Origin: an uncultured Ruminococcus sp.
GTDB lineage: Bacteria; Bacillota; Clostridia; Oscillospirales; Acutalibacteraceae
Reading direction: 5' to 3'
NCBI GenBank assembly: GCA_902777275.1
Contig: CACYTI010000003.1
Coordinates: 57,250-121,249 of the forward strand
Length of the DNA stretch: 64,000 bases
The notes beneath the pieces were generated by a model. It was not told where the DNA came from. It did no database searches and was given only the letters and a program-made list of their open reading frames with translations. Position numbers and translations under genes: made by a program. Shown in pieces: positions 1,274-15,334 of this stretch (within the stretch, counting starts at the first letter, position 1; the number at the start of each line of letters is the position of its first letter).

Positions 1274-2410
1274 TTAGCCGATAAATCTAACCTTGATAAC
1301 GCCGTCAACAGCCGCTAATTTATCAGCGTCCTCCTGAGTTGCGCCGTCGATTATCGTGTAGGCATACTCGCCGCGTGTCTTGGTGTTGAAGCCCGTCATA
1401 CCTGCAACGGTCACAGACTTAACATCGGCGTCAGCCTTGCTGATAACGGTAACTCTGCTGCCGTTTCTCGGAACCGAGAGAGCGGGCAGGTTGACGGAAT
1501 TTACAATATTTCCGTTCTCGATGTAATCCTTTATCTGGTTGCACGCCATAACAGCGCAGTTGTCCTCTGATTCGGGAGTGGAAGCGCCGAGGTGAGGAAT
1601 AACTATCACATTCTCCTCGCCGAGGATCTTGTCATTGCCGAAGTCGGTGACATACTTCGCGACCTTACCGCTCTTGAGCGCGTCAAGCAGGGCGTCGCTG
1701 TTTACAAGACCGTCGCGGCTGTAATTTAGGATCCTCACGCCGTCGCGCATTTTCGCGATCATTTCGGCGTCGACCATATCCTTTGTGTCGGGAAGAAGCG
1801 GAACGTGGATGGAGAGATAGTCGCAGTTCACCATTACCTCTTCGTTGCTGCCCATGATCTGAACGGCGGGGTCAAGCTTCGCCTTGTTAGCCTCGCTGAG
1901 GAAGGGGTCAAAGCCGATAACGTCCATGCCTACGGCAACGGCGACGTTGGCAACCAAAATGCCGATAGCTCCCAAACCGACAACGCCGAGGGTTTTTCCG
2001 GTGATTTCGGGGCCTACAAACTGACCCTTGCCTTTTTCAACAAGCTTGCCCATATCGTCGCCCGTGCCCTTGAGAGTCTTAGCCCACTCAATGCCCTCTA
2101 CGACCTTTCTTGAAGAGAGAAGCAGACCGGTGAGAACAAGCTCCTTAACAGCGTTAGCGTTCGCGCCGGGTGTGTTGAACACGCAAATGCCCTGAGCCGA
2201 GCACTTATCCTTGGGAATGTTGTTTGTTCCCGCGCCCGCTCTCGCGATAGCAAGAAGGTTGTCGGCAAATTCCATGTCGTGCATTGAAGCGGAGCGGACG
2301 AGAACCGCGTCGGGATTCTCGACTTCGCCGCAATTGTAGTTGTCGCCGAGACGCTTTGTGCCGACGGCGGCAATTTTATTTAATGTTAAAACATTATACA
2401 TGATTTTCAT
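1274..2410 (-). CDS. serA: D-3-phosphoglycerate dehydrogenase
   Basis: A 378-residue NAD-dependent D-2-hydroxyacid dehydrogenase of the shorter clostridial SerA form. It oxidises 3-phosphoglycerate to 3-phosphohydroxypyruvate, the first step of serine synthesis. Visible landmarks are the N-terminal VRSASMHDME and AGAGTNN segments of the substrate domain, the dinucleotide-binding VVGLGAIG near residue 140, the NYSRDGLVN segment and the catalytic PHLGAST near residue 275. A short ACT-like domain closes the C-terminus (from about residue 310). It lies downstream of serC, so the two successive pathway enzymes are probably co-transcribed across a 258-base gap filled with palindromic repeats. The start is the ATG after AAAAGG; a second ATG three codons later has better spacing and may be the real start. 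Confidence 0.93.
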   Translation of the reverse strand: MKIMYNVLTLNKIAAVGTKRLGDNYNCGEVENPDAVLVRSASMHDMEFADNLLAIARAGAGTNNIPKDKCSAQGICVFNTPGANANAVKELVLTGLLLSSRKVVEGIEWAKTLKGTGDDMGKLVEKGKGQFVGPEITGKTLGVVGLGAIGILVANVAVAVGMDVIGFDPFLSEANKAKLDPAVQIMGSNEEVMVNCDYLSIHVPLLPDTKDMVDAEMIAKMRDGVRILNYSRDGLVNSDALLDALKSGKVAKYVTDFGNDKILGEENVIVIPHLGASTPESEDNCAVMACNQIKDYIENGNIVNSVNLPALSVPRNGSRVTVISKADADVKSVTVAGMTGFNTKTRGEYAYTIIDGATQEDADKLAAVDGVIKVRFIG

Positions 2411-2471
2411 ATCCTTTTCTGTGATATTAAAAATGTGGTCGGATCAAATCATACACACTGACCTTAACTGC

Positions 2472-2545
2472 GTAGGGGCGCACCCATGTGTGCGCCCTTG
2501 GAAAGCAGTTACTTTGACCGGGCGCACACGCGGGTGCGCCCCTAC
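2472..2545 (+). repeat. 74-bp short form of the inverted-end element
   Basis: Begins GTAGGGGCGCACCCATGTG and ends CACGCGGGTGCGCCCCTAC, so both termini of the 117-bp element are present, but the interior is only about 20 bases. It lies between serC and serA. This looks like an internally deleted copy. Confidence 0.75.
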
Positions 2546-2578
2546 TATTATTTTAAACGAAATTATATGATAGGAAAC

Positions 2579-2603
2579 GCAGGCGTGCAATGCACGCCCC
2601 TAC
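2579..2603 (+). repeat. solo right-end hairpin of the repeat family
   Basis: The palindrome GGCGTGCAATGCACGCC runs into CCCTAC, the same terminal sequence as the right ends at 1148, 2545 and 21549, with a different pair of arms. It lies 65 bases beyond the serC stop. Confidence 0.6.
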
Positions 2604-2668
2604 AACAGCACGGTAATATTTTCCGGGCGTTGTATCTTTCATTGTTTTCCGAATCGAATCCGAAGCAA

Positions 2669-3754
2669 TTACAGATTCTCTTCCTCAAACTTCTTCATGA
2701 AGTCAACCAGAGCGACAACGCCCTCATAAGGCATGGCGTTGTAGATAGAAGCGCGCATACCGCCAACCGAACGGTGACCCTTGAGGTTCACAAGACCTGC
2801 CTCGGTGCTCTCCTTAACGAACTTAGCGTCGAGGTCGGCGTCGCCGGTTACGAACGGAACGTTCATCAAGGAACGGTCCTCGGGAACGACGGTGCCCTTG
2901 AACAGCTTTGAGCTGTCGAGGAAATCGTAGAGCAGCTTAGCCTTCTTCTCGTTGAGCTCCTTCATCTTATCAAGGCCGCCGATCTCGTTCTTGATCCACT
3001 CTAAAACAAGCTTGGCTACATAGATAGAATAGCAGGGCGGTGTGTTGTAAAGCGACTGAGCGTCGGCGTGGATCTTGTAGTTGAGCATTGTGGGCGTTAT
3101 GTCCATAGCGTTTCCGATAAGATCCTCGCGAACGATGGCGATCGTTACACCCGCGCCCGACATATTCTTCTGAGCGCCCGCGAACAGCGCGCCGAACTTT
3201 GTGATATCGAGTGGCTCGGAGCAGATGCAGGAAGAGATATCCGCGATGAGCGGAATGTCGCCTGTGTCGGGCAGCTCGTGATAAACGGTGCCGTAAATTG
3301 TGTTGTTCATGCAGATATATACGTAGTCGGCGTCCTCGCGGAACATCGACTTATCTGTTTTGGGGATATAGCTGAAGGTCTTGTCGGCGGAAGAAGCTAC
3401 CGCGACGGCGTCGCCGTAGCGCTGAGCCTCCTGCAAAGCCTTCTTAGCCCACTGACCTGTTACGATGTAGTCAGCCTTGTTGTTCTTGTTCATAAAGTTG
3501 AGGGCAACCATGGCGAACTGCGTTGAGCCGCCGCCCTGAAGGAACATTACCTTGTAGTTGTCGGGGATATTCATTACTTCTCTGAGAAGCGCCTCGGCGT
3601 CCTTGATGATTTTGTCGAACGCCTTGCTGCGGTGCGACATCTCCAGCACGCTCTGACCGGTGCCCTCGTAGTCGAGCATCTCAGCCGCAGCTTTTTTCAG
3701 GACCGCCTCGGGTAACATTGAGGGACCTGCGGAAAAATTGTAAACTCTTGCCAT
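2669..3754 (-). CDS. serC: phosphoserine aminotransferase
   Basis: A 361-residue class V aminotransferase that converts 3-phosphohydroxypyruvate and glutamate to phosphoserine. The N-terminus NFSAGPSMLP is the family signature; GGGSTQFAM near residue 75 and the AGAQKNMSGAG segment near residue 190, with the PLP-binding lysine, are present, as is HRSVGGMRASIYNAM near the C-terminus. The length is normal. AAGGGAG precedes the ATG. A strong sigma-A promoter lies about 90 bases upstream, and serA follows on the same strand. No T-box or other leader element is visible. Confidence 0.96.
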   Translation of the reverse strand: MARVYNFSAGPSMLPEAVLKKAAAEMLDYEGTGQSVLEMSHRSKAFDKIIKDAEALLREVMNIPDNYKVMFLQGGGSTQFAMVALNFMNKNNKADYIVTGQWAKKALQEAQRYGDAVAVASSADKTFSYIPKTDKSMFREDADYVYICMNNTIYGTVYHELPDTGDIPLIADISSCICSEPLDITKFGALFAGAQKNMSGAGVTIAIVREDLIGNAMDITPTMLNYKIHADAQSLYNTPPCYSIYVAKLVLEWIKNEIGGLDKMKELNEKKAKLLYDFLDSSKLFKGTVVPEDRSLMNVPFVTGDADLDAKFVKESTEAGLVNLKGHRSVGGMRASIYNAMPYEGVVALVDFMKKFEEENL

Positions 3755-3844
3755 GTCTAAAAACTCCCTTTTTACTTAGTGTAGGTGTTGTTGATTACTC
3801 TTCAAACTACCCCTATTATATTTTTATCTACCATAACATTTGCC

Positions 3845-3873
3845 ATTATACGCTTTTTAAATTGTGTTGTCAA
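3845..3873 (-). promoter_or_regulatory. sigma-A promoter of serC-serA
   Basis: Read on the minus strand, TTGACA (3868-3873) and TATAAT (3845-3850) are separated by exactly 17 bases, both consensus hexamers. The predicted leader is about 85 bases. Confidence 0.85.
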
Positions 3874-3918
3874 TAACATCAGGTATAATTAGTTAAATAT
3901 TTAACAATATCTTGATTA

Positions 3919-4851
3919 TCAAAACTTAATTTCACCGATAACCGACAAAATATCCTCTTTCATGCGCAGCGCCTCGGTTCTTGCGGCTGCGGCAAAGTCG
4001 TCCTCGGTGAGTCCCTGAGCCTTCCATGCGCACATGATCCCGCGGCTTGAATTGATTATCGCGCCCAGACCGTTTTTGTCAAAGGCATTTTTGGCGTCCT
4101 GAGCGCCGCCGCCCTGAGCGCCGTAGCCCGGAACAAGGAAGAAGGTGCGCGGAGCCTTTTCGCGCATTTCGGCAAGCTGACCGGGATAAGTCGCGCCCAC
4201 AACAGCGCCAACGCCCGAATAGCCGTATTTGCCCGGAAGCTGCTCTCCCCAGCTCTCGCACATTCTGCCCATCTGCTCGTAAACGGAAGCGCCGTTTTCA
4301 AGCTTTAGGTCCTGAAGCTCGCCGGAGCTCGGGTTAGAGGTTTTTACAAGCACAAAGATGCCCTTTTCCTTCGCCTTGCAAATATTTAAAAGCGGCTTAA
4401 TTCCGTCGGAGCCTAAATAGCCGTTGACCGTCAGCGCGTCCGCGCCGAAGGCGTCGAAGCTCTCGCCCGCCACGTCGGTCGAGCCGAGGTGAGCGGCGGC
4501 ATACGCCTCCATTGTAGTGCCGATGTCGTTGCGCTTGCCGTCGGTGATGACGAACATTCCCTTTTCCTTGGCGTAGGCGATCGTCTCGGCAAGAGCCTTA
4601 ACGCCCTGCCAGCCGTACATTTCATAATAAGCCGCCTGCGGCTTAACGGCGGGAACGACGTCATAAATGTCGTCGATGATAGCCTTGTTGAACTCCAGCA
4701 GAGCGGCGGCTGCGCCCTCAAGAGTTTTTCCGTATTTTTCAAAGCAGGCGTTCTTTATCGACGCGGGTACATAATCAAGCTTGGGGTCGAGCCCCGCGAC
4801 GGTGGGATTCTGCTTTTCAACGATTTTTTCAATAAGTCTGTCAAATGCCAT
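3919..4851 (-). CDS. pyrF: orotidine 5'-phosphate decarboxylase (type 2)
   Basis: A 310-residue OMP decarboxylase of the longer type 2 family; it makes UMP from OMP as the last step of de novo pyrimidine synthesis. AGLDPKLDYVP near residue 20 and the DGKRNDIGTT motif near residue 105 carry the catalytic Asp-Lys-Asp array, and PGYGAQGGGAQD near residue 243 is the phosphate-binding loop. GAGAGG stands seven bases before the ATG. It is the last gene of a run that includes pyrC, with the aldolase-like gene in between (46-base gap), which suggests a pyrimidine operon. Confidence 0.95.
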   Translation of the reverse strand: MAFDRLIEKIVEKQNPTVAGLDPKLDYVPASIKNACFEKYGKTLEGAAAALLEFNKAIIDDIYDVVPAVKPQAAYYEMYGWQGVKALAETIAYAKEKGMFVITDGKRNDIGTTMEAYAAAHLGSTDVAGESFDAFGADALTVNGYLGSDGIKPLLNICKAKEKGIFVLVKTSNPSSGELQDLKLENGASVYEQMGRMCESWGEQLPGKYGYSGVGAVVGATYPGQLAEMREKAPRTFFLVPGYGAQGGGAQDAKNAFDKNGLGAIINSSRGIMCAWKAQGLTEDDFAAAARTEALRMKEDILSVIGEIKF

Positions 4852-7244: not shown

Positions 7245-8618
7245 TTATTTGTTTTGAGCGGAGTCGTCATTTTCGGACGGCTTTCCGCTTTTGTTCGTTT
7301 TGCTTTTCAAAACGGATTTGATTTTCTCCGTAATAGCCTTTGCGGAAAACAGGCTCTTCCGGGGTTGGCGGCTTTTCCGGGTGCTCTTCGCGTCACTGCG
7401 GCTGTGAACCTTGATAAAGCTGCTGACAGCGCGGCGGCGTTCCTGAGCGGCGCGCGTCTTCTCTTGCTTTTCCTGTTCGCTGCGCTCAGCCTCGGATTTT
7501 TTCTGCTTTTTCTCGGCGACGGTGGTTTTTACGGTACGCTTGACATTTACGGCGAAGTAGCCCAAATGCTTGCTTACGCCCTTTACCGTGCCGCCGATTT
7601 TTTTGGCAGAGCCGGTAATTACTTTAATGGGATAGGACTGCATTTTTCCGCTGAGAGATGAAGTATTGCCATCGTCGGCATACTCGGCGTCCTTCAGGGT
7701 CATTGCGCCCGAGAACCTGCTCGGAGCCTCCTCAAAGAAGTCGTTGCTGTCGCGGAATTTTTCCTGCCGCGCTTCCTCGCGGGCAAGCACCTCGTCGTTA
7801 AAGTAATCGTCAAATTCCTCGTCGCCGCTGTCGCCGAAACCTAACATCGACATAAAGCCTCTTTTCAGCTTTGCTCCGCTGCCTTCCTCCGGATAATCCT
7901 CTTCCCCGTCATAATCTTCGTAATATTCTTCGTAATACTCTTCGTCGTCATACATATCAACGGGTTCGTCGTCATCGGAGAATTCCCCGTCGGTTTCATA
8001 ATAATAACCTTCGTCTAAATCCTCATTCAAATCCATGGCGTCTATGCCGTCATAAAAATCGCCGTCTAAATCCAAATTTTTATCGTCTGATTCGTCGTAA
8101 TACCTTAAATATGCGTCCTCGTCCGAACCATCAGTATCTTCATCCGTTTTTTCATCTGTATTTTCATGCTTTTCTTCATCTGTGTCTTCGTAATTATCCG
8201 TCTCATCAACTTCTCGGTAATGCTTTCCGGGCTTTTCCGGTTCTTCCTCGGCAGCTGCTTCAACCGGCACAGCCTCATCCGGACTTTCCGGCTCGGCGGA
8301 TGATACATCCTCCGACTGTTCCTCCGATTGCTCCTCAGACTGTTCCTCCGACTGTTCCTCCGACTGCTCCTCAGACTGCTCCTCAGACTGCTCCTCGGAA
8401 GAATACTTGGATATAAATATGTCGATCGAATGCAGATCGTCGAATTCATCATCGTATTTGTCGTTGTATACTTTATCCGCATACCTGATGATCGCGTCTA
8501 TTTCATCGTCGCTCAGGTCGTCCTCGTATATTTCTTCCGTGTCCGATGATACTCCTTTGAAAAAATCTTCATAGTCCGTATCTTCATTATACACTTTTAA
8601 TTCGTTGATATCTGCCAC
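7245..8618 (-). CDS. acidic low-complexity protein with SEEQ repeats and basic tail, unknown function
   Basis: 457 residues, no recognised domain. Residues 1-230 are extremely acidic and include about seven tandem SEEQ units (residues 76-103) and long runs of D, E and Y. A central stretch (260-300) is also charged. Residues 320-457 change to strongly basic, K/R-rich sequence with many QEK and KKQK patches. There is no signal peptide or clear membrane segment. The start given is a GTG with GAAGG seven bases upstream. However, the same acidic reading frame continues 64 codons further upstream, broken by an in-frame TAG at 8679-8681. The gene is 12 bases from pyrC. The function cannot be inferred. 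Confidence 0.65.
   Translation of the reverse strand: MADINELKVYNEDTDYEDFFKGVSSDTEEIYEDDLSDDEIDAIIRYADKVYNDKYDDEFDDLHSIDIFISKYSSEEQSEEQSEEQSEEQSEEQSEEQSEEQSEDVSSAEPESPDEAVPVEAAAEEEPEKPGKHYREVDETDNYEDTDEEKHENTDEKTDEDTDGSDEDAYLRYYDESDDKNLDLDGDFYDGIDAMDLNEDLDEGYYYETDGEFSDDDEPVDMYDDEEYYEEYYEDYDGEEDYPEEGSGAKLKRGFMSMLGFGDSGDEEFDDYFNDEVLAREEARQEKFRDSNDFFEEAPSRFSGAMTLKDAEYADDGNTSSLSGKMQSYPIKVITGSAKKIGGTVKGVSKHLGYFAVNVKRTVKTTVAEKKQKKSEAERSEQEKQEKTRAAQERRRAVSSFIKVHSRSDAKSTRKSRQPRKSLFSAKAITEKIKSVLKSKTNKSGKPSENDDSAQNK
8305..8400 (-). repeat. 12-bp tandem coding repeat (SEEQ units)
   Basis: About seven near-identical 12-base units with third-position differences (TCCGACTGT, TCCGATTGC, TCAGACTGC and so on), inside the acidic gene. 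Copy number is likely to vary between strains by slippage. Confidence 0.8.
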
Positions 8619-10222: not shown

Positions 10223-11569
10223 TTACTCAACGTGACCCTTGGAGCGAATAACGTCGATAACCTGATCGACATACTTCTCGCATTCCTCGTCGGTGTCCGC
10301 CTCAACCATTACGCGGATAACAGGCTCGGTGCCGGATTCTCTGAGCAGGATCCTTCCGTTTTCGCCCAAAGACTCGGCAACTGTCTCGACCTCCTTCTGA
10401 ACGTCGGGGTCGTTCTTCGCGGCGGGCTTTGACTTAACTCTGACGTTCTTGAGAACCTGGGGATACTTGACCATGGGAGCGGCAAGCTCGCTCAGGGGCT
10501 TCTCCTTGGCAAGCATGACCTCCATAACCTTGAGAGAGGTGAGGATGCCGTCGCCCGTGGTGGCGTACTTTGAGAAGATGATGTGACCCGAGTCCTCGCC
10601 GCCGAGACGGTTGCCGGTGTTCATCATGTTCTCGTAAACATACTTGTCGCCGACCTTCGTCTTGTCGTACTCGATGCCTACCTTGTCGAGAGCCTTGAAG
10701 AAGCCGAAGTTGCTCATTATGGTAACAACGACCTTGTTGTTGAGGAGCTTTCCTCTTTCCTTCATATAGCAGCCGTACATATAGATGATGTGGTCGCCCG
10801 AAACAAGGTTGCCCTTTTCGTCAACAGCGAGGCAGCGGTCGGCGTCGCCGTCGTAAGCGAAACCGATGTCGAGACCGTTCTCGACAACGAACTTCTGCAA
10901 GCCCTCGATATGAGTGGAGCCGCAGCCTGTGTTGATGTTGTAGCCGTCGGGGTTGTCGTTGATAACGTATGTCTTGGCGCCTAATGCGTCAAACACACCC
11001 TTCGCGATCTGCCACGCCGCGCCGTTTGCGACGTCAAGACCTACCTTGATGCCCTTGAAGCTGTATTTGCTCATTGAAATGAGGTATCCGATGTAGCGGT
11101 TGCGGCCCGAAACATAGTCTACGGTCCTGCCGATCTCTTCTCTTTCCGCTACGGGGATCTCAATTTTTCCGTCGATGTAATCCTCGACCTTTAGCAGGGT
11201 TTCCTCCTCCATCTTCTCGCCCTTGCTGTTGAGCAGCTTGATGCCGTTGTCATAGAAGGGGTTGTGAGAGGCGGAGATCATAATGCCGCAGTCAAAATCG
11301 TCGATACGTGTGATGTAAGCGACGGAGGGAGTTGTTGTAACGTGCATGATATACGCGTCGGCGCCGCTTGCCATAAGACCCGTGCAGAGCGCGTACTCAA
11401 ACATATAAGATGAACGGCGGGTGTCCTTGCCGATCACTACCTTTGCTTTTTTGCCCATGTTGGCGCCGTAATACCAGCCCAAAAAGCGTCCGATTTGCAT
11501 GGCGTGCTCAAAGGTGAGATCCTTGTTCGCCTCGCCTCTGAAGCCGTCGGTTCCGAAATATTTGCCCAT
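10223..11569 (-). CDS. glmM: phosphoglucosamine mutase
   Basis: A 448-residue alpha-D-phosphohexomutase that interconverts GlcN-6-P and GlcN-1-P. The N-terminus GKYFGTDGFRGEAN is the GlmM signature. ISASHNPFYDNGIK near residue 100 contains the phosphorylated serine, DGDADRC near residue 240 binds magnesium, and RESGTEPVIRVM near residue 407 is the phosphate-binding loop. The length matches the family. Its ATG overlaps the upstream stop by one base (TGATG), so it is translationally coupled to the acetyltransferase gene. It is the third gene of the ribozyme-led operon. Confidence 0.96.
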   Translation of the reverse strand: MGKYFGTDGFRGEANKDLTFEHAMQIGRFLGWYYGANMGKKAKVVIGKDTRRSSYMFEYALCTGLMASGADAYIMHVTTTPSVAYITRIDDFDCGIMISASHNPFYDNGIKLLNSKGEKMEEETLLKVEDYIDGKIEIPVAEREEIGRTVDYVSGRNRYIGYLISMSKYSFKGIKVGLDVANGAAWQIAKGVFDALGAKTYVINDNPDGYNINTGCGSTHIEGLQKFVVENGLDIGFAYDGDADRCLAVDEKGNLVSGDHIIYMYGCYMKERGKLLNNKVVVTIMSNFGFFKALDKVGIEYDKTKVGDKYVYENMMNTGNRLGGEDSGHIIFSKYATTGDGILTSLKVMEVMLAKEKPLSELAAPMVKYPQVLKNVRVKSKPAAKNDPDVQKEVETVAESLGENGRILLRESGTEPVIRVMVEADTDEECEKYVDQVIDVIRSKGHVE

Positions 11570-12231
11570 CAGTCAGCCTTCCTTTCGATAACAGCGCCGC
11601 TGTTCTTGAAAATGCAGTTTTCGGGAATGACCCCGCGCACGCATGAGGTGGGATATACGCTTGAGTGTCTGCCGATAACGGTTCCGGGGTTGCAAACCGC
11701 GTTGCAGCCGACCTCAACATAGTCGCCCAGCATAGCGCCGAATTTTTTGATGCCTGTTTCAATCTGCTCGGTTCCGTTGTGAACAACGACGAGCTTTTTG
11801 TCGGACTTTACGTTTGATGTGATCGAGCCGGCTCCCATGTGCGAGAAATAACCCAGAATGGAGTCGCCGACATAGTTATAGTGCGGGGTCTGAACGTGGT
11901 CAAAAAGAATGACGTTCTTGAGCTCGACCGAGTTGCCGACAACGCAGTTCGCGCCCACAAGCGCCGAACCTCTGATAAACGCGCCGTGTCTTACCTCGGT
12001 TTCGGGTCCGATGATACAGGGAGCGCCCAGATAAGCCGAGGGGAATACCTTGGCTGTCTTGTGTACCCAAACGCCCTTATCTCTCTCCTCGTAGTCGTCG
12101 CCGAGAGTGGGACCCAATTCAAGGATAAAGTCCTTTATGCCCTTGAGCGCCTCCCACGGATAGGTGAACTGCGAAAGATAATCCTTTGCGAGCGTATGAT
12201 CAAGATCGTACAGATCTTTTATTGTATACAT
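11569..12231 (-). CDS. left-handed beta-helix acyltransferase, probable glucosamine-1-phosphate N-acetyltransferase
   Basis: 220 residues. After an N-terminal helical part (1-55), the sequence shows hexapeptide repeats of the LbH fold from about residue 56 to 210 (VFPSAYLGAPCIIGPETEVRHG and onward). PHYNYVGDSILG followed by GAGSITSN near residues 125-145 closely parallels the acetyl-CoA and sugar-binding region of the GlmU C-terminal domain. No uridylyltransferase domain is present, so a separate enzyme must make UDP-GlcNAc. It is sandwiched between nagB and glmM, with one-base overlaps on both sides (TAATG and TGATG). This supports a role on GlcN-1-P, although another sugar acceptor is possible. 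Confidence 0.75.
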   Translation of the reverse strand: MYTIKDLYDLDHTLAKDYLSQFTYPWEALKGIKDFILELGPTLGDDYEERDKGVWVHKTAKVFPSAYLGAPCIIGPETEVRHGAFIRGSALVGANCVVGNSVELKNVILFDHVQTPHYNYVGDSILGYFSHMGAGSITSNVKSDKKLVVVHNGTEQIETGIKKFGAMLGDYVEVGCNAVCNPGTVIGRHSSVYPTSCVRGVIPENCIFKNSGAVIERKAD

Positions 12232-13022
12232 TAAAGTCTCTCCTTCTTCTCGATGTCGAGGAAGTATTTATAAGTGTCAACTGTCAGCTCGCCGCAGGCA
12301 GCTTCGTCGCAGGCGATGATAGCGCCGTTGTGCATTTGCAGCGCGGAGCAGGTCCACTTGTGGCTGACAGAGCCCTCTACGGTCTCAGCCAGCGCTCTTG
12401 CCTTGTTGTGGCCATTAATCAGGATCAAAACTTCCTTGGAATCGGTAACGGTGCCTACGCCTACGGAAAGCGCCTGAGCGGGAACCGCTTCGGGATCGTT
12501 GCCGAAGAAGCGTGAGTTTACGATTCTGGTGTCGGTGGTGAGGTTTCTCACGCCGGTGCGTGAAGCAAGGCTGGTGAACGGCTCGTTGAACGCGATGTGA
12601 CCGTCAACGCCGATGCCGCCCATAAAGAGGTCGATCCCGCCGTAAGAAGCGATCTTCTCCTCGTATCTTGCGCACTCGCCCTCGGGGTCATCGGTCATGC
12701 CGTTCAAAATGTTGATGTTCTCCTTCTTCATGTCAACAAGGTGATCGAAGAAGTTGTCGTGCATGAAGTACCAGTAGCTTTGGTCATGCTCGTGAGGAAG
12801 ACCGAGATATTCGTCCATGTTGAAGGTAACAACATTGGCGAAGGAAAGCTCGCCCGCCTGATTCATTTTGTAAAGCTCCTTGTAAACGCCGATGGGCGAA
12901 GAGCCTGTGGGAAGTCCCAGAACAAAGGGACGGTCTTCCTTGTGGTTTCTGATTTTATCGGCGATGTAATTAGCCGCCCACTTGCACATTTTATCGTAAT
13001 TATCCTGAATAATGACTCTCAT
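12231..13022 (-). CDS. nagB: glucosamine-6-phosphate deaminase/isomerase
   Basis: A 263-residue NagB, which interconverts GlcN-6-P with fructose-6-P and ammonia. [15 protein letters not shown] near residue 39, NMDEYLGL near residue 67 with the catalytic aspartate, and [13 protein letters not shown] near residue 135 are all intact. The length is typical. AAGGAG lies nine bases before the ATG. Normally NagB is catabolic and sits with nagA; here it opens an operon with an acetyltransferase and glmM, behind a glmS-type ribozyme. That context argues for use in the synthetic direction (amination of fructose-6-P with ammonia). No glmS or nagA is in the window. Confidence 0.95.
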
Positions 13023-13123
13023 ATGACAAATCTCCTTAGGCTTTCAGCCTTTTGAATTTTAAATTTTTTATTTGTTCCGGTGCCGGAAGAACCTTTGTTA
13101 CAGTGTTGATTCTGCTTTTTTCT

Positions 13124-13250
13124 TTCTTCCTTGCGACCCACCGAAAACGGACAGGCGCGTTTTACGCCCCGATCCGCGCTTAGCCGTGGCAGCATCCGCC
13201 GAATCTTTCGATAACTGCCAACCTCGTCAACCGTGTCGGTCCCGGCGCTA
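13124..13250 (-). ncRNA. glmS ribozyme: glmS-type self-cleaving ribozyme/riboswitch upstream of nagB
   Basis: Read on the minus strand from 13250, the leader runs TA|GCGCCGGG, then GGTTGACGAGG, GTTATCGAA, ATTCGGCGGATG and CGGCT, in the order and spacing of the conserved glmS ribozyme core. The expected cleavage is between A13249 and G13248. P1 can form as GACCG/CGGTT around ACA. The helix flanking the catalytic loop is GGCAG (13215-13219) with CTGCC (13188-13192), where the remembered Bacillus subtilis version has GGAGG/CCTCC, a compensatory change. A P3-like hairpin follows (GCGGA...TCCGT enclosing GGGCG/CGCCT); a P4-like stem is less clear. About 100 bases of leader separate it from nagB. 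The region 13023-13426 has no gene. Known role: GlcN-6-P-dependent mRNA cleavage. Confidence 0.85.
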
Positions 13251-13324
13251 ACAACTCTTTTTTTCTCCTTTCAGACAAAGCTGTTTTATATGTTCACGCG
13301 GGCTTGCCCGCACAAAACACAAAA

Positions 13325-13353
13325 ATTCTAACATACACCTCGGCAAAAGTCAA
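13325..13353 (-). promoter_or_regulatory. sigma-A promoter of the ribozyme-nagB operon, overlapped by an inverted repeat
   Basis: On the minus strand, TTGACT (13348-13353) and TAGAAT (13325-13330) are spaced 17 bases. A 9-bp inverted repeat, CCTCGGCAA (13338-13346) and TTGCCGAGG (13358-13366), brackets the -35 box and could be an operator or the remains of a terminator. Transcription would start about 65-75 bases before the ribozyme cleavage site. Confidence 0.8.
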
Positions 13354-13426: not shown

Positions 13427-15334
13427 TCAGGTTTCGGGAACCTGATGATGGAAGGTGGGAACCAAATCGCTGAGCAGCTCAACGGTTTTTTCGCTGTCGT
13501 TCGAGTCGGCACTAACTCGCAGCCCGTGCAGCTTTCTGAGCATTTCGGGCGCGTCTATTTTAATTTGGTTGCCTATAAAAATCTTTTTGTTTTCGGTGGA
13601 CTTCAAGCCCTCCTCGTCCATCAAAAGCTCCTCAAACAGCTTTTCGCCCGGGCGCAAGCCGGTAAACACTATGGGAACATCCTTGTAGGGCACCTTTCCG
13701 TACATTCTGATAAGGTTTTCGGCAAGAGTGGTGATTTTTACGGGCGCGCCCATATCGAGCACAAAAATCTCGCCGCCGTTTGCCATGGCTCCCGCCTCAA
13801 GCACCAGCGACACCGCCTCGGGGATCGTCATAAAGTAGCGGATGATGTCGGGGTGAGTGACCGTGACGGGCGAGCCGTTTTCTATCTGACGGCGGAACAA
13901 CGGGATAACCGAGCCGTTGGAGCCGAGCACGTTGCCGAAGCGCGTCGTGACGAACTCGGTGTGCTCCGCGGTCTGCGCCTTGTACTGAATGATCATCTCG
14001 CAGGCGCGCTTTGTGGCTCCCATTACGTTTGTGGGATTGACCGCCTTGTCGGTGGAAATCATAACAAATCTGTCAGCCTTGTAAAACTCCGCTAAAGTCG
14101 CCACGTTGAAGGTTCCGAAAATGTTGTTCTTTACCGCTTCCTCGGGCACCGTTTCCATAAGCGGAACGTGCTTGTGCGCCGCCGCGTGAAAAACTACCTG
14201 GGGACGGTATTTTTTGAAGAGGCTCTCCATTTTTCCGTAATCGCGCACCGAGGCGATTATCGTTTCAAGGTTCAGCGAATTGCCGTACTCAAGGAGCAGC
14301 TCCTGCTGGATATCGTAAGCGTTGTTTTCGTAAATATCGACGATAATTATTTGCTTCGGTTCATACTTGGCTATCTGGCGCACAAGCTCGCTGCCGATCG
14401 AACCGCCGCCGCCCGTGACCATACAGACCTTGCCGCAGATAAACCGGGCGATCTTGGCTTTGTTGAATTCGATCGGCTTTCTTCCGAGCAGATCCTCTAT
14501 CCTAATCTCCTTCGCCTGCGACAGCAGCTTGTTATCGGAGTCGTTCAAAAGCAGCTCACTCAGGTAAGGCACGACCTTGATCTTGCACTTGGTCGCGGAG
14601 CAATAGTCCAGTATTTTCCGCTTCTCCTCCTCCTCACACGACGGGATAGCCACTATGATATTATCTATATTTTGATCGATGCAGATTTTTGGTATTTCGG
14701 CGCAAACGCCCACGACCTCGACGCCCATAAACCTTTTATGCAGCTTGGTCGGGTCGTCGTCAACCATGCATACGGGCAAAAGACCGAACGAAGGGTTCTT
14801 TTGGTCGGTTTCAGCGTTGTGTATCTCGGTAAGGATCATTCTTCCCGCGTTGCCCGCGCCTACGATAAGCGTTCTCTCCCTGCGCTCGGCGCTGCCTATC
14901 GCGGTAAGCTTTATAAACATACTTTTAAACAAAAGCCTGAACAGCAGCACGCCGGCAGTAGCCGTAATAAAAAACAGCGCAAAGAAAATCTTCCTCGGAT
15001 TAGCCCTCATCAGCACAAGGATGCCGTAGCCCAAAGCAAAGCCGAGCGTCATTGCCGCCGCGCACATCAGATAATCCTTGATGTTAAAATACCGCCACAT
15101 CCGCGAATAAGAGCCGAAAAGCAGCATCATAAGCTCACAGGTGAGCACTACGATAAGACTGAAAACCAATAAGCCCTTAGGGTTCAGGGGAGAATAATAA
15201 AACAATTCATTGCTTGAATCGACCGAAATAGCGCTTACGATCGACAGAATGTAATTAAGCACGATCCCGCTGATTGTAATTATAAAAATATCCGCAAGCA
15301 ATAATATTAATTTGCGGTAATTTAATTTCATCAT
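13427..15334 (-). CDS. membrane-bound nucleotide-sugar 4,6-dehydratase/epimerase (CapD/WbpM/PglF family)
   Basis: A 635-residue polysaccharide biosynthesis protein. Residues 1-140 hold four or five membrane helices. A first Rossmann-like domain follows (LIVGAGNAGRMI near residue 150) and then the catalytic SDR domain (VTGGGGSIGSELVRQI near residue 305, HAAAHKHVPLME, STDKAVNP, VMGATKR near residue 438). The Met-x-x-x-Lys arrangement in place of Tyr-x-x-x-Lys is that of inverting UDP-GlcNAc 4,6-dehydratases. It probably acts on UDP-GlcNAc at the inner face of the membrane for capsule or glycan synthesis. It lies directly upstream of the GlcN operon with its own strong promoter, which fits a shared UDP-GlcNAc supply. 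Confidence 0.88.
   Translation of the reverse strand: MMKLNYRKLILLLADIFIITISGIVLNYILSIVSAISVDSSNELFYYSPLNPKGLLVFSLIVVLTCELMMLLFGSYSRMWRYFNIKDYLMCAAAMTLGFALGYGILVLMRANPRKIFFALFFITATAGVLLFRLLFKSMFIKLTAIGSAERRERTLIVGAGNAGRMILTEIHNAETDQKNPSFGLLPVCMVDDDPTKLHKRFMGVEVVGVCAEIPKICIDQNIDNIIVAIPSCEEEEKRKILDYCSATKCKIKVVPYLSELLLNDSDNKLLSQAKEIRIEDLLGRKPIEFNKAKIARFICGKVCMVTGGGGSIGSELVRQIAKYEPKQIIIVDIYENNAYDIQQELLLEYGNSLNLETIIASVRDYGKMESLFKKYRPQVVFHAAAHKHVPLMETVPEEAVKNNIFGTFNVATLAEFYKADRFVMISTDKAVNPTNVMGATKRACEMIIQYKAQTAEHTEFVTTRFGNVLGSNGSVIPLFRRQIENGSPVTVTHPDIIRYFMTIPEAVSLVLEAGAMANGGEIFVLDMGAPVKITTLAENLIRMYGKVPYKDVPIVFTGLRPGEKLFEELLMDEEGLKSTENKKIFIGNQIKIDAPEMLRKLHGLRVSADSNDSEKTVELLSDLVPTFHHQVPET

Follow-up and report, generated by a model that had tools for sequence, protein, structure and literature searches.

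A glmS-family ribozyme precedes nagB in a putative biosynthetic hexosamine operon of an uncultured Ruminococcus sp.

The glmS ribozyme is established as a feedback element through which a synthetic enzyme, GlmS, is controlled by its product, and the class is defined by structure, whatever the genomic place of the RNA. Both the ribozyme class and the NagB enzyme family are known. Among the literature matches listed (titles and abstract starts), none reports a glmS ribozyme before nagB, and on this basis the nagB target, the operon, its spread and the circuit described here appear to be new. An earlier mention is possible, for instance in the 2011 'expanded collection' survey of glmS ribozymes.

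NagB usually forms glucosamine-6-phosphate (GlcN6P) only when its substrates are abundant (PMC4281351). According to the same source, the NagB of Giardia lamblia, an organism without GlcN6P synthase, supplies GlcN6P from fructose-6-phosphate (Fru6P) and ammonia (PMC4281351), and gene context suggests the same anabolic reaction for the NagB studied here. Giardia differs in being a eukaryote for which that text names no ribozyme, and the cell studied here also has glmS. The archaeal GlcN6P deaminase/synthase of the GlmD type is described there as having GlcN6P synthase activity without being a whole GlmS, and as resembling the isomerase domain of GlmS rather than NagB (PMC4281351). Akkermansia muciniphila is a gut bacterium without GlmS which needs GlcNAc and whose NagB is not activated by GlcNAc6P (PMC5902328). 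The available part of that paper gives Km values of 41 mM for NH4 and 5.5 mM for Fru6P and states that 41 mM NH4 does occur in the gut. In contrast to what is proposed here, the Akkermansia NagB is reported as unable to make GlcN6P by amination at physiological levels, and that part of the paper mentions no ribozyme (PMC5902328).

In the window, which is the whole stretch of 64,000 nucleotides analysed, a glmS-family ribozyme (RF00234) was located on the minus strand at 13075-13260 by cmscan of the whole window. The match covers the full model (positions 1-167) with 60.3 bits against a gathering threshold of 37 and an E value of 2.1e-11, and it is the only RF00234 match in the genome (2,587,433 bases in 57 contigs, rated 100% complete). 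The first gene below it, at a distance of 52 bases, is nagB, which takes the usual position of glmS. A preliminary description had recognized both the ribozyme and its unusual neighbor from the letters, and the covariance model and the NagB family model (below) agreed with it. The full-length covariance match, the cleavage motif and the core are like those of a glmS ribozyme before glmS, whereas nagB comes first here and the cell's own glmS is without a ribozyme. Cleavage is predicted between A13249 and G13248, and the order of the sequence elements is A13249-G13248 with CGCC, TTGACGAGG, TTATCGA and TTCGGCGGATG. A promoter-like sequence, TTGACT-17-TAGAAT, in which TG precedes the second hexamer, was found at 13325-13353 on the minus strand (pattern match 10/12). 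It is weak by itself, since shuffled sequences give a nearly equal frequency of such sites (five found against 4.0 in shuffles).

Three genes on the minus strand follow the ribozyme. The nagB gene (12231-13022) encodes a glucosamine-6-phosphate deaminase/isomerase of 263 aa, which scored 379.3 bits with the equivalog model TIGR00502 (cut-off 236.9) and has PDB matches. The glmM gene (10223-11569) encodes a phosphoglucosamine mutase of 448 aa, with 545.6 bits for the equivalog model TIGR01455 (cut-off 447.55). Between them, a gene at 11569-12231 encodes a left-handed beta-helix (LbH) protein of 220 aa which resembles the acetyltransferase half of GlmU. In this half it is similar to archaeal GlmU and to PDB 5z09 (E 7.1e-22). 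Unlike archaeal GlmU, it has no nucleotidyltransferase half: it matched TIGR03992 only at profile positions 212-393 of 393, with 136.4 bits, below the cut-off of 292.1, and is not a two-domain GlmU or archaeal GlmU. The PHYNYVGD motif of the LbH protein is kept in 34 of the 34 homologues looked at. H308, Y311, N331 and K337 of 5z09, which we take to be catalytic, are kept in it, and K340 is not. We propose this protein as a GlcN-1-P N-acetyltransferase. Since nagB overlaps the LbH gene by one base and the LbH gene overlaps glmM likewise, the three genes are likely in one transcript. The operon holds candidate enzymes for every step from Fru6P to GlcNAc-1-P. Elsewhere in the window, a gene at 7245-8618 on the minus strand encodes an acidic protein of 457 aa with a run of SEEQ repeats, for which no Pfam or NCBIfam match was found at E 0.001.

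Two residues of NagB that are presumably catalytic, D72 and H143, are both kept in the window protein. In an alignment with E. coli K-12 NagB, six positions of the GlcNAc6P site, Tyr121 excluded, were compared, using the list of E. coli allosteric residues in the available text of PMC4281351. The window protein agrees with E. coli at D141, E148 and Y254 and differs at the other three, with T for S151, G for R158 and R for K160. With three of the six positions kept, the window NagB is not of the E. coli allosteric kind. Changed residues at these positions are also found in NagBs without a ribozyme, including that of locus L120, where nagB has a GntR/UTRA regulator gene on one side and a PTS EIIC gene on the other, a setting typical of catabolic loci. 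Loss of the allosteric residues was therefore rejected as a mark of a synthetic NagB.

We propose that the ribozyme, nagB, the acetyltransferase gene and glmM form a biosynthetic operon in which NagB works in the synthetic direction and GlcN6P feeds back through the leader ribozyme, and we put the probability of this reading at roughly three in four. NagB would form GlcN6P from Fru6P and ammonia, GlmM would convert GlcN6P into GlcN-1-P, and the beta-helix protein would acetylate GlcN-1-P to GlcNAc-1-P. At high GlcN6P, the ribozyme in the leader would cut the mRNA at A13249-G13248, the downstream piece would be degraded and the pathway would be turned off, a negative feedback as on glmS. The target of this feedback would be the ammonia-using NagB, and the glutamine-using GlmS would be kept as a second, ribozyme-free entry in this cell. 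NagB is read as synthetic because glmM and the acetyltransferase gene are in the operon, no nagA was found in the genus and glmS is present in two of the sets; in addition, feedback by its own substrate on a catabolic enzyme would be perverse. The enzymology speaks against this reading, given that NagB usually needs high substrate levels to form GlcN6P and that the Akkermansia enzyme, from a glmS-less bacterium, is reported as unable to form it at physiological ones.

Beyond the window, an intact glmS (608 aa, 766.9 bits) was found on a separate contig of the same genome, at C30:3944-5764, directly behind a glutamine synthetase gene. GlmS-independence of this cell, which the preliminary description had suggested, is ruled out by this gene. 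The other part of that suggestion, a synthetic NagB under feedback by its product, is favored by the operon context, the lack of a detectable nagA and the recurrence in relatives, all of which are genomic evidence. A second ribozyme before an ordinary glmS had also been considered; none was detected before the own-genome glmS at E values up to 0.5 (locus L002). The genome has a single nagB match, and nagA was found neither by HMM nor by protein query. With glmS and nagB present and nagA not found, two entries to GlcN6P are possible in this cell, with no GlcNAc6P deacetylase detected. A glutamine synthetase gene beside glmS was seen in three genomes, i.e., the own genome (L002, 3352-4782), L060 (3371-4792) and Solobacterium RGIG8821 (L215, 4120-6204; type III by Pfam). 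The pairing of glnA with glmS was dropped as a general sign of a 'glutamine route', since it was present at only 1 of the 30 fetched glmS loci of the genus.

Sixty genomes of the genus, drawn from a larger group, were examined. The ribozyme was present in 26 of them and a nagB of the cassette type in 26, and a recount confirmed that these are the same 26 genomes. There are 28 ribozyme places in this sample; nagB is the next gene at 27, and the remaining one is at a contig end. No nagA was detected in any of the 60 genomes by HMM at E 1e-20. Because the HMM gave no match in the B. subtilis control, a test by protein query was added, which detected no nagA in the 22 of the 60 genomes that it covered. 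Among the matches listed, glmS was over the cut-off in 51 of the 60 genomes. Considering the genomes of at least 90% completeness, glmS was present, among the matches listed, in all 15 without nagB and, over the cut-off, in 14 of the 15 with the cassette. In the fifteenth, G033, which is rated 100% complete, glmS (L210, 1102-2816) is interrupted by a stretch of Ns and by a gap that breaks the frame; as these are maybe an assembly fault, the broken gene was dropped as proof of dispensability.

Nine genus genomes, G033 among them, were below the glmS cut-off among the matches listed. G004 and G014 (81% and 84% complete) are also without nagB, while the ribozyme is present in G006 (89% complete, with a short glmS piece listed) and in G058 (80% complete). 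G016, G025, G041 and G056 carry a second, ribozyme-free nagB. In the glmS-less G016, G025 and G056, this second nagB is 39-40% identical to the window nagB over 198 residues and is located directly behind a GlmM-like protein of 540 aa (in G016, locus L211, at 3732-4457 and 2040-3659, respectively; L212 and L213 are alike). In the G016 copy, Pfam places an HTH_3 domain fused to the front of a complete GlmM, and the copies of G025 and G056 begin alike; the fusion is perhaps a self-regulating mutase. Neither glmS nor nagA was found in G016, which is 99% complete.

The position of the cassette was compared with that of glmS by means of a dehydratase gene, found in the window at 13427-15334. Its homologue is directly upstream of glmS at 16 of 16 loci from nagB-less genus genomes and at 0 of 14 loci from nagB-bearing ones, where one of the 14 (L063) covered 250 bases upstream only. 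The dehydratase gene is upstream of the ribozyme in the window and at 8 others of the 28 ribozyme places; at the other 19, the upstream sequence covered, at most 1.5 kb, did not show it. Since the same gene precedes either glmS or the ribozyme and nagB, the cassette, as judged by this neighbor, sits at the glmS place of sister species in at least part of the genus.

A scan for NagB relatives yielded 80 named loci, and 50 of these genomes were searched for the ribozyme; the named set overlaps the genus sample by at least 3 of the 50 (G062, G065 and G068) and maybe by others of the genus. The ribozyme was present in 36 of the 50 genomes, in 35 of them over the cut-off, at 37 places. At 30 of 30 fetched places it is followed by nagB, the acetyltransferase gene or glmM, six further places are just before nagB by coordinates, and the 37th, in G100, precedes glmS. 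In Solobacterium RGIG8821, both nagB and glmS are preceded by a ribozyme, and glmS is followed by the type III glutamine synthetase gene. The submitters' labels of the ribozyme-bearing records include Ruminococcus, Oscillospiraceae, Lachnospiraceae, Erysipelotrichaceae, Solobacterium and Parasporobacterium, and many of the named relatives are rumen or gut metagenome genomes by record title, a habitat that may suit the ammonia-rich gut suggested in the preliminary description. Chance or an assembly artefact might in principle have put the ribozyme beside nagB, since many relatives are metagenome-assembled by title. However, the recurrence in 26 of the 60 genomes of the genus and in 36 of the 50 named ones, on contigs of up to 390 kb and including the record Ruminococcaceae bacterium P7, makes such an origin so unlikely as to be negligible. 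The same numbers answer the earlier question of whether the arrangement returns in nagB leaders of related genomes.

The order of genes at the 36 named ribozyme loci was nagB-LbH-glmM at 19 and, with glmS behind, at 1 more; the others were nagB alone (7), LbH-nagB-glmM (3), LbH-glmM-nagB (2), nagB-glmM (2), nagB-LbH (1) and glmM-nagB-glmS (1). These orders bear on a second explanation, in which NagB is catabolic and serves imported glucosamine, the ribozyme is aimed at glmM and the acetyltransferase, and nagB is a passenger. NagB is indeed catabolic in most organisms according to the available text of PMC4281351, glmM is in the set at 28 of the 36 loci, and the ribozyme-less L120 has the regulator and PTS neighbors noted above. 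On the other hand, nagB stands alone behind the ribozyme in 7 of the 36 loci (same strand, within the stretch examined, which for L079 ends 0.7 kb past nagB), GlcN6P would switch off its own breakdown, and the searches for nagA in the genus gave no match (0 of 60 by HMM, 0 of 22 by protein query). Furthermore, glmS follows the set on the same strand in two loci, 75 bases after nagB in L122 and 1.2 kb after glmM in L094, which is odd for a NagB running backwards. We consider a catabolic NagB as passenger unlikely, and prefer the synthetic NagB under feedback by its product.

The ribozyme was absent from 14 of the 50 named genomes, and none was detected at a lax threshold in 19 ribozyme-less nagB loci, 13 of which are from those 14 genomes. 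The nagB loci with the labels Mogibacterium and Spirochaetales are ribozyme-free. Matches to raiA RNA were observed 2-6 kb upstream of ribozyme-less sets of glmM, acetyltransferase and nagB in L111 (1576-1740), L101 (1-143) and L105 (1-120); only the L111 match passes the family threshold, and those of L101 and L105 are truncated where the stretch ends.

At E 1e-40, glmS was without a match in 13 of 50 and in 15 of 29 named genomes, for which completeness is not stated. Since nagA is present in 11 of the 13, salvage could feed those cells; seven of the 13 have the ribozyme, and nagA is present in six of these seven. A GlmS-independent hexosamine route may exist in some of the glmS-less relatives, many of which are incomplete or of unstated completeness. 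In five genomes (G074, G080, G088, G103 and G109), nagB is 77-91% identical to that of the window genome but glmS only 48-52%, and in four of them glmM is 80-85% identical; G103 is without the ribozyme. The much higher identity of nagB and glmM than of glmS suggests that the cassette spread horizontally, with the reservation of possible binning errors.

To compare the RNAs themselves, 54 cassette ribozymes and 13 glmS-linked ribozymes were aligned. The sequences came from the 28 genus places minus L034 (contig end), from the 37 named places minus the duplicates L153, L155 and L166 and six without loci, and, for the glmS comparison, from 12 of the 30 loci of the order and from one locus of G100. 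The cleavage motif AGCGCC and the core TCGGCGG are present in the window and in 54 of 54 cassette ribozymes, and the core GACGAGG in the window and in 53 of 54. The helix GGCAG/CTGCC, formed by 13219-13215 with 13192-13188 in the window, is fully paired, with five standard pairs, in 54 of 54; two of these pairs are invariant, and the other three vary, each with both sides changed. In the glmS-linked ribozymes, 57 of 65 cells of this helix pair, and the last pair forms in only 7 of 13, suggesting that the alignment is poorer there. In the tree (midpoint root, no support values) the cassette ribozymes are together, and the glmS-linked one of G100 is nearest to them. A third explanation, that the fold was kept while another ligand is sensed or cleavage was lost, so that there is no feedback by GlcN6P, would fit this separate group and the cassette scores of only 36-73 bits, although those of the order survey, 34 to 112 bits, overlap with them. 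It does not fit well with the nearly invariant motifs and the both-side changes in the helix, and we regard it as quite improbable.

In wider samples, the ribozyme was found in 99 of 394 genomes of the order and 265 of 398 of the phylum. Ninety-eight of the 100 order places were classified by the genes that the fetched stretch contained, so that the deciding gene is sometimes not the first one, leaving out those of G000 and G033, both nagB-linked: glmS was in the stretch at 86, nagB types at 3 and something else at 9. In the phylum, 30 of 30 places were with glmS, these being the best 30 of the matches listed, whereas nagB types would fall among the low scorers. As both counts are mostly glmS, the use of the glmS ribozyme by nagB is a minority branch. 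Some order places have other neighbors. In L262 and L265 (G184 and G224), the ribozyme is followed by an alike protein of 581 aa that is neither GlmS nor NagB, identified in L265 as a PhoU-domain Na+/phosphate cotransporter. L263, L266, L277, L281, L294, L308 and L244 have neither glmS nor nagB in the fetched stretch and no clear gene directly behind the RNA. Separately, frames of 366-369 aa at G511:C4:118608-119672 and G521:C9:205386-206441 match only the isomerase half of GlmS (~250-604), below the cut-off; no full glmS was found in these two genomes, and the frames are possibly GlmD-like.

Beyond the proposed feedback operon itself, the odds seem to us evenly balanced on a wider reading, in which a mobile, ribozyme-controlled and ammonia-dependent hexosamine operon is spreading among distant rumen and gut bacteria. 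Such an operon would have replaced glmS at its chromosomal position in some members of the genus, would spare glutamine (compare GDH with GS/GOGAT), and would be the sole source of GlcN6P in some lineages.

If the synthetic reading of NagB is true, the GlcN6P ribozyme follows the metabolite and not the gene, with the same switch placed on whichever enzyme makes GlcN6P. Bacteria would then have a natural way into cell-wall sugars that is driven by ammonia, and the annotation of nagB in gut genomes, as deaminase or synthase, would change. The direction of NagB would become testable starting from the leader RNA. The finding would also bear on drugs against GlmS or the glmS ribozyme, because GlcN6P could be reached by a second path in cells of this kind.
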